Assembly: GCA_964036155.1 (NCBI GenBank)
Contig: OZ038422.1
Location: forward strand, 41,253,201 to 41,317,200
DNA from: Diploscapter coronatus
Taxonomy: Eukaryota > Nematoda > Chromadorea > Rhabditida > Rhabditidae
Length of the DNA: 64,000 bases
Direction: 5' to 3'
Part shown: one piece after another, positions 52,070-58,927 of the stretch
Layout of the letters: every line of letters starts with the position of its first letter
How positions within the stretch are numbered: the stretch's first letter is position 1
Notes under the pieces: model-generated
The model's database searches: none
The model's input: the letters and a program-made list of their open reading frames with translations, nothing else
Told to the model about the DNA's origin: nothing
Translations under genes and position numbers: made by a program

Positions 52070-52152
52070 CTAGACGGACCTAGGGAGCACTTTCGTCAGA
52101 CGAAAATAAACTATAGGGGGTAGGTCGCACGAGCGAATTCATAGTTATAACT
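52070..52152 (+). mobile_element. Family D element, truncated copy
   Basis: ACGGACCTAGGGAGCACTTTCGTCAGACGAA and TAGGTCGCACGAGCGAATTCATAGTTATAA repeat the left half of the element at 0.81-1.01 kb; the right half is missing. It abuts the Kelch pseudogene fragment. Confidence 0.6.
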
Positions 52153-52497: not shown

Positions 52498-54250
52498 TTA
52501 CTCCAAAATTGTGGATACAGGACAAATATCACTCAAATTGTCAGAGTCGGAGTCTTCATGAGTTTCGAGGTAACCGTAATAATTTGTTATCATCAGGAGG
52601 CACTTGGAAATCTCCGATTTTAGCTGAAAAATCAATTCTCTCAGAGAGCGAATAATACTCACCTCATCAAATGATAGTCGACCCTCAGGATTTATACTCC
52701 AGCATTTCTCCATCAGTTCATACCTAAAAACCAAATGTTATTCAGAAGAGATCATGCCTCACATTTCATCAGGACACAATTCCGGTTTCGGAAGTCGATT
52801 TCCTTCTCTTAAATGAGCCATCAAATCAGACGGTGCAATGTCGTGGTAGGGTCGTTGTCCTAGAGAGTAAAATTCATAGAGGGTCACACCAAATGACCAG
52901 CTAAATGATTATCTTATCAAAAAAAAAACATCTAATCTCTGATAATTACACATCGCTCTTTGATGAAAACTCGGAATTAGTAAATGCCTCGGGAGCCGTC
53001 CACTTCAGAGGCAGCAATCCTCTCACCACTTTATCCGATTCATCACTTTTGATGGCTAATCCAAAGTCAGATATCTGCAACAAGATCACAAATTGATTAC
53101 CAATTCTCGAAACTGCATACCTTTGCCTTGTGGCCCTTGGTCAAAAGAACATTTCTTGCTGCTAGATCTCGGTGCACAATATCTTTAGAGGCCACATAAC
53201 TCTGAAGTTGATCAGGAATGATGCATGAGTGAGAATTGAGAATTGGGAATCTATTACCATTCCGTCGCAAACTTGCCAAGCAAATGATGTGATTTCTTTA
53301 ATACTGATAGTTCCACTCTAGACTGGATATTTACAAGCTGAGATATTAAAGTCATTTACCTTGAAACTTTCTTCATTATCAATAAGGTATTTCAAAATGT
53401 CGCCTAGTTCACAGTGTTCGAGTATCATCAAGGGAATGAATTTACTGGGTACGTAACCGTACATGCTGAATGTCAAAATCATGGTTTATGAAGGGTTTAA
53501 CATTCAACTTTTACCTAACAATATGCAGATTGTATTCGAGTCGTTTCATAATTTCAATTTCTCGATAAAAGTCCTCATGATCTCGATCAGATGCATGTCC
53601 TTGAAGACGTTTCATTGCCACATGAAATAAATTCATAAAGTTGACTCTATCACTTCAAAGGCTACTTCGACTACGTCCTTTTTTGAATTTGGATGTAAAT
53701 GAACTTCGATATTACGGCTAATCGAAAATAGGGGAATCCGACCTATTAATTTTCATTTCATTGCAGAACGATAAATGAAAACTATTCGAACCAGACACAA
53801 CTCCAACATAAACCTCGGAAAATGCTCCCTTTCCTAGTAGTCGATCCTCATAAATTTCCACTTCTGATTGTTTGATCGCCCAAGCGTCCCTATAATTCAT
53901 CTTCTAATCAGATATTCGAGCATTCGTACATACTCTTTAAAATCCGAACAATTAATGTATTCGTTACGATGCTTAGAGTTTCTAAAATGAAAGAAAGCGC
54001 ATTTTGTTTTAAAAAATCGATTACTTTAAATGATTTGAGATGAATATGTCGATGTGTTTCCGTCTATAGTAAATCGTACAAACGACGAATATGATAGATA
54101 AGACAAATACCATTGGAATAGAGATGATTAGGGCTGATGATATTTATTATTTATTATAGGATATTGTCAAATGATCTCACTTATTTTTCCATAATCGGTA
54201 GATGAAGTGGGAGTTGATGAGGTAGGAGTCTTTGGATCCTGATTCATTTC
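52498..54250 (-). CDS. Receptor tyrosine kinase: stalk, transmembrane helix and kinase domain (3' part of a probable Kelch receptor gene)
   Basis: Minus strand. Exon 54250-54181 encodes a Ser/Thr/Pro stalk (EMNQDPKTPTSSTPTSSTDY). 54133-54025 is a membrane helix (IPMVFVLSIIFVVCTIYYRR). A juxtamembrane exon, 53981-53934, follows. The kinase domain shows the glycine loop GKGAFSEV (about 53830), VAMK lysine (about 53610), IVHRDLAARN (53201-53121), DFGLA (53074-52950), LKWTAPEA, DVWSFGVTLYEFYSLGQRP and CWSINPEGRL. HRDLAARN and TAPEA mark the tyrosine class. The stop TAA is at 52498 with AATAAA about 10 nt beyond. All catalytic residues are present. Two joints are unresolved: between 53.94 and 53.90 kb, and near 53.64 kb, the frames do not connect by a normal intron (micro-introns, assembly indels or decay). 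No signal peptide was found between 54.25 and 55.19 kb, and exon 54250 is in phase with the upstream Kelch exons, so I read both as one gene. Confidence 0.9.
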
Positions 54251-54542
54251 CTGTAACATTCTTAGTGTGAAAGTATCACAAAATCATAAAGAAACGCATT
54301 TATGGGGTAATCGAGTATGTCTACAATAAATCTGAAGATTTTTCGTCATTTTTTCAACAAATTTACGAAACGATTTTTTCCTGATTTTTCTTTTCCCACT
54401 ATTAGATATAGGCCTAAGGAATTTTTGCACTCAAATTGCAAAGTAGGCTGGCTTATCATATTATCACAAAAAGAAATTATCGAAATTTTAGAATGTTCCA
54501 GAAACAAGCAAAGAAATTCAAACGAACGTCCTTAAAAAGCCG

Positions 54543-54722
54543 TTCTCCCTTTGAAATGGCTTTTTGAATAGTTCACCCCTTCACCTGCTCACCCTTTTGA
54601 ATAGTTCACCCTCTTAAATTGGTCACCCCTTTGAATTGTTAAGGGTGAACAGGGTGAACTATTCAAAGGGGTGAGCGGGTGAAGGGGTGAACTATTCAAA
54701 AAGCCCTTTGAAATAGCCTTTG
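54543..54722. mobile_element. Family F foldback element (intronic)
   Basis: Arms of about 55 bp, GGCTTTTTGAATAGTTCACCCCTTCACC then GAATAGTTCACCCT, are inverted at 54650-54710, with an internal loop that itself repeats AGTTCACC/GGTCACC. It lies in the intron between the Kelch exons and the kinase stalk exon. Confidence 0.8.
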
Positions 54723-55199
54723 CTCTATTCACTGCAAAGGCAGGGCACGCTTTTTGCTTGACAAAAAATGAAGAAAAGGGGTTTTCGAATCATCATTTTC
54801 AGAAATTCATATCTTTGGTTACACTGATCCGTTTTTCATGCGATTTCCTGCTATAAGCTTGATTAGCCCATCAGATTTTGAGAAAAATACTTTCATAATT
54901 CTGCCTTCATATAGGGAATATCACTTGCGCTCCCTAGATAAAAGAGCAAAGTTCCACTTAACAATCGATAATCTAATCATAATTAGCACTAATTGCCATT
55001 AATTATCGATAGTTAACGGACAATTAGTGAAATTTCGACAGAAAATCGAAAAATGAGAATTTCGCGTGAAAAATTCTCACAATGGAAGCCGCAACGCATG
55101 AGAACGCAATGCGTTTCGCACCTCCCCCTTTCACGAAGGGCACTGGCGACGGACTTGTCATTCACAATGGACAATAATAATAATAATATATTAATTTAC

Positions 55200-58100
55200 T
55201 TTTTCAACTATTTCCCATCTATTCGCCTGTGGATCGTATTCCTCAATTGAATTACGAAAATTGTCAAATAGCACTTTTTGAAGTCTAAGTTAACAAATAT
55301 TTCGTACAAAAATATGCAAAATCTCAGCTCACCCTCCGATTGCATACAATTTCCCGTTGGCGACAATGAGCGAATGTTCATGTCTCTCATAATTCATATC
55401 AGCGATTCGAGAAATTCGACTGCCAACTGGAGCTGAGGGATCGAAACACAGACAGGATTTGAATGTATTATTATAACTAAATATATAATGATACATTAAT
55501 TATCATATAAAATTAACGTTTTCCATCCTCCAGTTATATAAATTTTCCCATTAAGCGATGCAATTCCGGAATAGCCCCGTGTTTCTGGAATCTCTCCTAT
55601 TTCAATCCATTCTCGTTCATCGTCTAATAATCTATATATCTTTCTATTTCCAAAACCATCAATAACTGAATGTCCATAATTACAATAATGAATATGCTAT
55701 AATGTGACCGTATAAAATTTCATCACATGTTACTGTTTGAACAAGATTAATTGAAAAAGGAAATTTAGGTCCTGTTTGCCATCTTCCATCTATTAAAACC
55801 TGAATAAATTATTTCATGGTCTTTCATCCGATCTTCTTACATCAACTCGATTCGTATTTCCACCCAAATAATACAATTTGTCTTTGAAATAAGCGACAGA
55901 TGCGTCGCGCCATTCAGGAGGAGCTGGACCTGTAAAATTATTTGAATCGATCATTCATGGATTTGCTGATAAAACCTCTTGAAAATTGTCGAGTATTCAG
56001 ATCGAAAATTTCAAACAAGTTGCTATAAGATGCAATTGCAAAAATCTGAACTTTGATAAATTATTCAAAATAACGAACATAAGAGTTTACTTTATTCTGT
56101 GTAGTTGCTACTTGAAATGGCCGATAATAATTGTGAAATTTTGCAATCTCTTCGACTGAGTAGGTAAATGAATTGAATAAGCCTATTCTTCCTTCATATT
56201 TGCCATTATTATTTGAATAGAAGTCTAAATTATAATAAATTATTAAATCTTCTATTCGTTAAATTTATTCTTATTTCTTACGATAGAATAAAATGCTATC
56301 CAAATTATTGAATAAATTGTCTCCACCAATTTGCAAATGAATTTTTTCGACTTCTCGCCATTTATCTGTTTTTGGATTGTATTCCTCGATTGAGTTGCAG
56401 AAAACGTGAAACATGATGTCGTGAAATCTAGGTTAGCAAATATTTCGTATAAAGATATGCAAAATCTCAGCTCACCCTCCGATTGCATATAATTTCCCGT
56501 TAGCGACAATGTGCGAATGTTGATGTCTTCCATAATTCATATCAGCGATTCGAGAAATTCGACTGTCAACTGGAGCTGAGGGGTCGAAACACAAACAGGA
56601 GTTCAATGCAAAAAAATCACTAAATATACAATGATACATTATTTATCATACAAAATTAACTACCGTGATCCTCCAGTAATGTAAATTTTTTCATTTAGCG
56701 ATGCAACTTCGAATGAACCTCGTCCTTCTGGAATCTCTCCAATTTCAGTCCATTCCAGTTCATCGTCTGATAATCGATATATCTTTCTATTTCCAAAACC
56801 ATCAATAACTGAATGTCCATAGTTACAATAATGAATATTCTATAATGTGACCGTATAAAATTCCATCGCATGTTATTGCTTGAGCAAATGCAATTGGAAG
56901 AGGAAATGTAGGTCCTGTTTGCCATTCTCCATCTATTAAAACCTGAATAAATTATTTCATGGACTTTCATCCGATCTTCTTACATCAACTCGATTTGTGC
57001 TTCCACCCAAATAATACAATTTGCCTTTGAAATAAGTCACAGATCCACCATTACGCCATTCAGGAGGATCTGGACCTGTAAAATTCTTTGAATCGATCAT
57101 TCATGGATTTGTTGAACAGACCTTTTGAAATTTGTCGAGTATTCAGATCGAAAATTTCAAACAAATTGCTATAAGATGCAATTGCAAAAATCTGAACTGA
57201 TAAATTATTCAAAATAACGAACATGAGAGTTTACTTTATTCTGTGTAGTTGCTACTTGAAATGGGTCATAATAATTGTGAAATTTTGCAATCTCATCTAC
57301 TGAGTAGGTATGTGAATCGAACAAACATATTTTTCCTTCCTTATCACGACTATTTGAATATAAATCTAAATTATAATAAATTATTGAATCTTTTATTCCA
57401 TTAAATTTATTCTTATTTCTTACAGTAAAACAAAATTATATGCAAATTATTGGATGAATTGTCTCCGCCAATCTGCAAATTATTGATATTTCGGGCTAAT
57501 TCATTCATTGTATTATTAATCAATGGGATTTCAATTTCTTTCTGGAACCATCACTTCCATTTTAGTTATGAGCTATGTATTTTCAAAATGCAAAAAACGA
57601 CATTTTGGATCACTCATCAAACCTCCCAACGGTTTATGATGAATTGAAGTCTTGCGATAATGTTTAGACAGGAATCATGCATGGAGAGATCCTGCCGCAT
57701 CTATTTTGTGTTCTCGCATTGTAAAACGGAAATTTTGATACATTATTTTGATATTGAAACAAGAAATGAATCCATTTTCATTCGTTACTGCCGTTTTTTC
57801 TTTGAATCTTTGCAACTCCCTCCCTCAAGTGAACGAGAAATGACGATTTTGGACAATTTTCAATCGTTTGGATATATCCGAAAATCGTGATCGCGAATTC
57901 AATTGACGAAAAATGCCAGCAAAATTGGAAATTCGGAAAACGTAATCAACCTTACATAACAACTTACCGATTGGGAAATTGATCTCTTTTTCACAGCTTC
58001 CTGAATTGGAGGTTCCTTGAATTCGATTTCTTCATTCTCCATCCGTTTGTCGGAAGCATCTGGGTTATTCACCATTGGCTTTATGATCTTATTCTACATA

Positions 58101-58927
58101 ATAAGTAGCGCACATTTTATGTGGCATCAAAAAGAGAGATTCTTTGTTTTCTTCTAAATTTTAGGCATTTTGGGTAGCTTATATCAATAATGCTTTAATA
58201 TGATGCTATCGCAAATAAAGTCACTTTAACTGTTTTTCAGCCAGCTAAAATCTAATATAGCAGAAGCACTAATATTTATGAATGAAGATCACCTCAATAT
58301 TTGAGCGATAGTGTAACAGGTGGAAAGTAAAAGAACAATCAAAAGAATTCACGGATACTAATAGGTTTCGAGTCAAACATTTTCTTTAGGAATCAAATCT
58401 AAAATGGCCATTTAGCAATTGTTGCAACTCATGAGGCTCCATCGACCTTTCAAAGTTGACAAATATTTCTTCACATGTTCTATCGAAGAATTTTACCGCG
58501 ATTATCATTTTAATCGCGCACTTCCACCAAGTACCTGCACTTCTTCTAGACATAGTTTAAAAAACAATTCCCGACTTTTCCTTTCTGAGAGGGTGAGTAA
58601 AAAGTCTGGGTCGTTTTTCAATTATAAAATCTACGTTATAAAAATCATAAATTCATGACGAAATAAAATAAAAATATACAGATAGATAGAATATGTATAG
58701 GAGAAGGTAATATTCAAGCTTCTGGAAAGGTTTTGCTATTTTTATTCCGGTGGTGATTTTTAAAAGTAAATCTAAAGCGACCCAGACTTTTGCGCACCCT
58801 ATAAATATTTGAACAATGAAAATCTTGACTTACCTTTAGCTACATTCTTAGTACTATCTTGTTTATTTCCTGAGATGAGCTGAGACTGGTTTATTAGTAA
58901 TAATAGTGGAAATAGCTTCAATAACAT
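55200..58927 (-). CDS. Secreted/extracellular Kelch-repeat array (probable ectodomain of the adjacent tyrosine kinase)
   Basis: Minus strand, 17 exons in phase: 58927-58834, 58059-57968, 57472-57424, 57365-57235, 57191-57122, 57075-56984, 56942-56852, 56808-56664, 56619-56476, 56427-56282, 56224-56091, 56045-55976, 55929-55841, 55799-55709, 55665-55518, 55476-55333, 55284-55200, totalling 605 codons. The start is a signal peptide (MLLKLFPLLLLINQSQLISG). Two homologous blocks of seven exons each follow, with Kelch signatures KLYYLGGSTNRVDV, KIYRLSDDELEW, KIYITGG, HSHIVANGKLYAIGG and SIEEYNPKTDKW; each block makes about five blades, and exon 10 bridges them. The array ends EYDPQANRWEIVEK at a GTAAAT donor; reading through gives a stop two codons later. 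The donor is phase 0 and fits the acceptor at 54250. Extracellular Kelch propellers usually bind proteins or sugars. If not fused, this would be a secreted Kelch protein. Confidence 0.85.
58588..58802. mobile_element. Family G miniature element (intronic)
   Basis: AGGGTGAGTAAAAAGTCTGGGTCG on the left, and the reverse complement of CGACCCAGACTTTTGCGCACCCT on the right. Terminal inverted repeats of about 24 bp around 165 bp of AT-rich filler, followed by TA. The ends recall Tc1/mariner-type elements. It lies in the first intron of the Kelch gene. Confidence 0.7.

Follow-up and report, generated by a model that had tools for sequence, protein, structure and literature searches.

A predicted receptor tyrosine kinase with a two-propeller Kelch ectodomain in the nematode Diploscapter coronatus

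Results and Discussion

Exon Chain in the Window

A stretch of 64,000 nucleotides (nt) of the genome of Diploscapter coronatus (assembly GCA_964036155.1, contig OZ038422.1, positions 41,253,201 to 41,317,200), hereafter the window, carries on its minus strand, from window position 58927 to 52498, exons for a signal peptide, Kelch repeats and a tyrosine kinase, which are probably spliced into one receptor tyrosine kinase with a predicted two-propeller ectodomain. Such a receptor had been proposed from the letters of the window; it is the better-supported reading, mainly by virtue of sister loci in the same genome, and is still a prediction, the Kelch tail at the junction (GTAAATTAA) being an inherited stop. 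Spliced alignment and direct translation gave a chain of 30 exons with a coding length of 3090 nt, corresponding to 1029 amino acids (aa) and a stop, with no internal stops and no frameshifts provided that a non-AG acceptor, TTTCAT at 53622, is allowed. The reading runs from the signal peptide through a short acidic stretch, an HSP70 linker and two Kelch units to a stalk, a membrane helix and the tyrosine kinase, as follows.

58834..58927, minus strand: exon 1, start codon and predicted signal peptide MLLKLFPLLLLINQSQLISG, strong donor AAAG/GTAAGT, phase 1; the same exon is present in the four Kelch-kinase loci of the window type
57968..58059, minus strand: exon 2 (DASDKRMENEEIEFKEPPIQEA...), acceptor AACCCAG, phase 1 in and phase 0 out; acceptor common to all four signal-peptide copies of the window type
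56282..57541, minus strand: exons 3-10, HSP70-linker remnant (IPLINNTMNELARNINNLQIGGDN) and first Kelch unit, reaching into the start of the second
55200..56224, minus strand: exons 11-17, second Kelch unit, ending VEK/GTAAAT (phase-0 donor; read-through gives V N stop)
54251..55199, minus strand: spacer, a predicted intron of 949 nt, containing part of a dispersed repeat and an inverted repeat found only in the window
54181..54250, minus strand: exon 18, Ser/Thr/Pro stalk EMNQDPKTPTSSTPTSSTDYGKI, acceptor TTACAG, in-frame ATG at codon 2
54025..54133, minus strand: exon 19, single membrane helix and basic stop-transfer sequence (YYRRK)
53666..53981, minus strand: exons 20-22, juxtamembrane part and glycine loop (GKGAFSEV), insert ahead of the lysine exon
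53515..53621, minus strand: exon 23, VAMK lysine exon, behind the non-AG acceptor TTTCAT at 53622
52498..53465, minus strand: exons 24-30, remaining tyrosine kinase (HRDLAARN, DFG, APE) and tail

Exons 1-17 comprise 628 codons and close in phase 0 at GAAAAA/GTAAAT (55200), and exon 18 opens in phase 0 after TTACAG. The original prediction was right about the 17 exons, the single frame and the donor of the Kelch half, for which it counted 605 codons; its continuation from the phase-0 exon at 54250-54181 through stalk and helix into a kinase with intact HRDLAARN, DFG and APE motifs was borne out by alignment, translation and Pfam. The VAxK lysine accompanies these three motifs in the window kinase, whose stop is followed by AATAAA 8 nt downstream. 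What the exon chain as first described had overlooked is the TTTCAT acceptor ahead of the VAMK exon, where the aligner needs a frameshift if only AG acceptors are admitted.

In Pfam searches the window protein matched Kelch_1, Kelch_6 and PF24681, all above the cut-offs, and PK_Tyr_Ser-Thr at residues 719-992 (E 4.8e-77, 259 bits). NCBIfam, Rfam and tRNA searches added nothing. The most hydrophobic 19-residue segment, at residue 651, is the single strong one and is followed by YYRRK, the N-terminal 19 residues ranking third. Repeated Kelch motifs and a propeller fold were both found; the 50 matches listed in the fold search were Kelch propellers or designed Kelch-like proteins, a result that does not in itself exclude other families, and the structure model, made for a homologue from Diploscapter pachys, was of low confidence. 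The unit length of about 250-270 aa would fit six blades per Kelch unit.

Sister Loci in the Same Genome

The genome (169.7 Mb) lies on three contigs, two of which, of 88 and 82 Mb, were taken as the two haplotypes (C1 and C2); loci are named below by contig and position in Mb. A kinase search of the genome gave at least eight close kinase loci: the window, C1:38.92, C1:32.66, C1:69.93, C1:69.96, C1:70.13, C2:65.29 and C2:65.33. A same-strand Kelch lies upstream of the kinase at seven of these eight (at six according to upstream DNA, at one according to mapped coordinates), C1:70.13 standing outside this count, and on this ground a bare kinase duplication unlinked to Kelch was ruled out.

The order of signal peptide, Kelch, spacer and kinase is common to the window, C1:38.92, C2:65.33 and C1:69.96, and all four are open end to end from Kelch through kinase, with readings of 1029 aa in the window, 787 aa at C1:38.92 and 761 aa each at C2:65.33 and C1:69.96. 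The latter two loci have AG acceptors throughout and one GC donor each; the readings of the window and C1:38.92 are open only via the TTTCAT acceptor. Since the same exon order is open end to end at three other fully read loci, the order in the window is not due to chance. The aligner had initially picked weak sites for exons 1 and 2 (768 aa for C1:69.96), and these were overruled by the shared phase-1 acceptor AACCYAG, which gives 761 aa. A reading artefact as the source of the composite was ruled out by the clean 30-exon chain together with the three other open loci.

Kelch and spacer matches also lie upstream of the kinase at C1:32.66, where no match to the signal-peptide exon of the window type was found. 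Signal-peptide exons are present in five of the seven loci with Kelch, namely the four of the window type and, with a different exon, C1:69.93; the stretch examined at C2:65.29 was too short to show a signal peptide either way. Six more distant kinase paralogs (L073-L078, 52-70% identity over the matched pieces) have no credible Kelch match within 4.6 kb upstream. They carry other conserved upstream sequence; next, as judged by eye from the alignment, comes an internal exon resembling the stalk, whose phase at the junction with the helix exon is unchanged. Kinases of this group thus seem to be built, as a rule, with a stalk exon following an ectodomain.

At C1:69.93 and its apparent allele C2:65.29, both inverted and at a distance of about 34 kb from C1:69.96 and C2:65.33, respectively, the Kelch ahead of this same kinase is a divergent one, 28-35% identical to the other type over the matched pieces. 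No HSP70 was found at either of the two loci. The divergent Kelch at C1:69.93 opens with a signal peptide of its own, MVFHWRSSLFLLFTVLNLAFTQ; its last exon ends in phase 1, and a 29-nt exon (GRLPEDQDAQ) restores the phase 0 needed by the stalk. The hand-read exon chain of this Kelch is matched by the D. pachys protein P0200, and in the D. pachys gene model P0080 part of the divergent Kelch, the 29-nt exon and the kinase are united in one protein, which is independent but weak evidence for a Kelch-kinase fusion.

Spacer and Stalk Exon

The spacer between Kelch and stalk, 949 nt long in the window, measures 669-729 nt in the other three loci of the window type. Neither AATAAA nor AATGAA occurs in any of the six Kelch-kinase spacers, that of the window included. 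For comparison, 12 of 30 other Kelch loci have a stop a few codons past the last blade with AATAAA no more than about 20 nt away; in others the frame enters a further Kelch unit or ends otherwise. The window spacer contains 16 ATGs, six of them with a phase-0 donor ahead of a stop, and the longest such frame, of 45 codons with a hydrophobic stretch (MTSPSPV...), falls mostly within a stretch missing from the five aligned sister loci. Two to six candidate start exons were counted per spacer in the six spacers, and none is common to all six.

About 360 nt of the spacer correspond to a dispersed repeat (L071:4890-5250) present in at least 33 other genomic places (best 40 of 566 candidates scored). 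The similarity between the type of C1:69.93 and C2:65.29 and that of C1:69.96 begins at the edge of this repeat, so that the two Kelch types may have been exchanged by recombination there. An inverted repeat of TTCACCCCTT-type units was seen by eye at window positions 54700-54560 and is missing from the four sister loci aligned at this place.

The stalk exon was readable at seven of the eight kinase loci, the search pattern matching none at C1:32.66. Its lengths of 70, 124, 73, 73, 37, 73 and 73 nt are all 1 mod 3, and it is open in all seven copies read. An in-frame Met stands at stalk codon 2 in four copies (window, C1:38.92, C1:69.96 and C1:70.13) and only at the last codon in C2:65.33 and C1:69.93; the stalk exon of C2:65.29 has no Met at all. 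The statement made earlier that no alternative start lies between Kelch and kinase thus did not hold, an in-frame ATG being found in the window three bases after the acceptor of the stalk exon.

The ratio of nonsynonymous to synonymous substitution rates (dN/dS) between copies was 0.14-0.49 for the kinase in all 21 pairs and 0.49-0.62 for the Kelch in all six pairs. For the stalk-helix region, which is short, it exceeded 1 in 19 of 21 pairs, was undefined in one and was 0 for C1:69.93 against C2:65.29. The kinase half of the C1:38.92 copy, which has a longer stalk exon, was aligned separately from its Kelch half. As the kinase is under selection and a stalk with no start of its own can stand ahead of the helix, upstream coding exons or an upstream start are apparently needed.

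Origin of the Kelch Part

The window Kelch has at least 345 matches across the genome, in both haplotypes. The D. pachys proteins P0001, P0002 and P0004 consist of an HSP70 nucleotide-binding domain and Kelch, and among 30 Kelch loci of D. coronatus (L039-L068, 3.4 kb each) HSP70 exons were found in nine, directly upstream in the same orientation in seven and downstream in two. The HSP70 linker of the window is 83% identical to P0015 over 42 aa, and its Kelch exons match P0004. The HSP70 nucleotide-binding domain itself was not found in the window, where, as in three other signal-peptide copies, only the last HSP70 residues and the linker are matched. From these similarities, the window Kelch probably descends from a hugely amplified HSP70-Kelch family.

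Two further arrangements were observed in this family. The D. pachys protein P0003 (WR25_13422) contains a protein-kinase domain, fitted better by Pkinase than by the tyrosine-kinase model, together with Kelch and HSP70, and may be a run-on model. In the Kelch copy L059 the frame continues about 40 codons beyond the usual stop (ELIKSGIEKSRKS...), giving a different C-terminal tail.

One Receptor or Two Genes

Several observations weigh against a single receptor. The chief one is that the phase-0 donor may have arisen by accident, from a gene end that was inherited: the Kelch tail is homologous to the end of stand-alone Kelch genes, with the stop two codons past the donor, and the same tail is found on L055 and on L054, the latter with no kinase within the 1.4 kb examined. 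Since the GTAAAT donor is also present on Kelch copies without a visible kinase nearby, it is by itself no proof of fusion; and since L054 also lacks AATAAA, for 880 nt, the absence of this signal is not specific to the composites. A signal-peptide Kelch lies at C2:76.13 with no close kinase among the mapped matches of the genome kinase search. The composite loci are copies of one another and not independent witnesses. Of the 21 other introns in the C1:69.96 copy, 19 measure 39-58 nt, far less than the spacer, which between C1:69.96 and C2:65.33 is also less conserved than the short introns (80.9% versus about 90% identity). The ATG right behind the stalk acceptor in four copies resembles trans-spliced starts, which often carry an ATG immediately after the acceptor. 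Ahead of the 29-nt exon the divergent Kelch of C1:69.93 may come to an end by itself, at an MLE stop that has AATAAA close by (AATGAA at C2:65.29). P0080 is an automated model from which stalk and helix are missing and in which the frame of the 29-nt exon is a different one. Searches of related nematode proteins, one of them with the 768-aa version of C1:69.96 as the query, gave no full composite among the D. pachys proteins listed.

The inherited stop, the Kelch copies apart from any kinase, the ATG behind the acceptor and the long, less conserved spacer would all be accommodated by two neighbouring genes, one encoding a secreted Kelch protein whose end (...VEKVN-stop) lies at about 55191, the other a kinase of very short ectodomain that starts from the ATG within 54250-54181, perhaps as a trans-spliced downstream gene of an operon. 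We regard this arrangement as unlikely, because it leaves the kinase under purifying selection behind a stalk that has no start at C2:65.29 and only a last-codon Met at two further loci, and because it requires as a coincidence that two unlike Kelch genes precede the same kinase, a signal peptide being present in at least one copy of either type. Moreover, the stalk exon, in spite of its four different lengths, is always open and in frame; polyadenylation-type hexamers (AATAAA or AATGAA) are missing from all six spacers; and the six distant paralogs have an internal stalk-like exon. A far less credible explanation is that a dispersed Kelch repeat landed beside the kinase by chance and was then copied as a block. 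The abundance of Kelch in the genome would favour such a landing, and the copies share non-coding flanks, so that the loci are not independent; but the position ahead of the kinase is occupied by two different Kelch lineages, each with signal peptides, whereas the D. pachys proteins of the amplified family have an HSP70 domain at their start. One spliced receptor is accordingly the reading retained below.

State of the Window Copy

The acceptor of the lysine exon is TTTCAG in five of the eight kinase loci and TTTCAT in the other three (window, C1:38.92 and C1:32.66). The match between the window and the allelic region of C2 breaks off at position 52148; it is taken up again 19.3 kb later on C1 and about 290 bases later on C2. 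The segment present in C1 only extends from window position 52149 to about 7.5 kb past the window end (C1:41324698) and is missing from C2 at 38735683-38735971, so that the whole Kelch-kinase module is on one haplotype only. The window copy is thus hemizygous, and splicing of its kinase may be impaired.

Taken further, the window copy could be a decaying hemizygous duplicate whose kinase can no longer be made since the lysine-exon acceptor was lost. The replacement of TTTCAG by TTTCAT before VAMK and the missing segment on the other haplotype point in this direction, and we hold such decay to be quite possible, if rather less than probable; it is compatible with a single receptor. On the other side, C1:38.92 and C1:32.66 carry TTTCAT too, yet pairwise kinase dN/dS among the three is 0.21-0.34; the remaining kinase splice sites and motifs are intact; and a splice that skips exon 22 and uses an AG at about 53651 would, as read from the sequence, preserve both the frame and the lysine.

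Proposed Function and Evolution

If the single receptor is made, its Kelch propellers would bind a ligand outside the cell, or each other; the receptor would cluster, and the stalk and single helix would transmit the clustering, thereby activating the tyrosine kinase inside the cell. By analogy with the KIN-16 receptors of Caenorhabditis elegans, one may guess that a microbe is sensed in the epidermis.

As to its origin, the Kelch unit would have been taken from the amplified HSP70-Kelch family, the members of which have no signal peptides, and would have lost the HSP70 part and gained a signal peptide. An older secreted Kelch on this kinase would then have given way to it, perhaps through a recombination event in the repeat-bearing intron, and the window copy would be one family member, with a doubled propeller and on one haplotype only. 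We propose tentatively, as a reading that falls a little short of probable, a family of receptor kinases in which the Kelch was swapped wholesale in this way, so that the sensors would evolve fast and would not be alike on the two haplotypes of an asexual worm.

If the junction is true, the protein would represent a new ectodomain class for animal receptor tyrosine kinases, and the side-by-side loci would show a receptor swapping its sensing domain and keeping stalk, helix and kinase. Fast-changing ectodomains of variable copy number would suit a role in microbe recognition.

Comparison with Known Systems

The claim of the original prediction that no Kelch blades are known outside the membrane was too wide. 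Attractin-type proteins carry extracellular Kelch. A Kelch propeller outside the cell is thus shared by the attractin/MEGF8 type and the protein predicted here, which matches the Pfam model Beta-prop_ATRN-LZTR1; to our knowledge, proteins of that type have no kinase. The legend of Figure 3 in PMC6993872 names Kelch among the domains of Eph-like proteins of unicellular holozoans. These are alike in having Kelch, but they are not animal proteins, and the portion of that text available to us gives neither the Kelch carrier nor the side of the membrane. A literature search, largely at the level of abstracts, found no report of a Kelch receptor tyrosine kinase in an animal. As far as searched, then, both parts are of known kinds, receptor tyrosine kinase and Kelch propeller, and their combination in an animal is unreported, with a partial holozoan precedent in the legend of PMC6993872.

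The proposed origin in a nematode lineage fits so far, in that, among the matches listed, relatives at this identity occur only in Diploscapter, the closest named proteins being those of D. pachys. No protein named as C. elegans is among the best 120 kinase matches listed. The C. elegans KIN-16 family has a short ectodomain. This family (KIN-15, KIN-16, OLD-1 and FLOR-1) is described as C. elegans-specific, its receptors OLD-1 and FLOR-1 act in oomycete recognition, and Kelch is not mentioned in the available part of the source (PMC10523662). The putative likeness to it is that of nematode lineage-specific tyrosine kinases of the receptor type; the kinase core in the window is that of an ordinary tyrosine kinase. 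Among the closest named non-Diploscapter nematode kinases listed are two from Auanema, P0088, which has a C-type lectin domain, and P0092, whose name refers to F09A5.2, at 37% and 43% identity, respectively. By eye, P0088 has a hydrophobic start, ectodomain, helix and kinase, as in the window protein; outside the membrane the Auanema kinases have a lectin domain, or no recognised domain, in contrast to the Kelch of the window protein.

As to the Kelch part, a study of HSP70 expansion has described a cluster of 59 HSP70 genes in Diploscapter (PMC6872716); the word Kelch is absent from the main text of that paper as available. HSP70 cluster III of that work, to which P0001, P0002 and P0004 would belong, is probably the family from which the Kelch unit of the window was derived. 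The D. pachys HSP70-Kelch proteins begin with the HSP70 domain, whereas the window protein is predicted to begin with a signal peptide instead.

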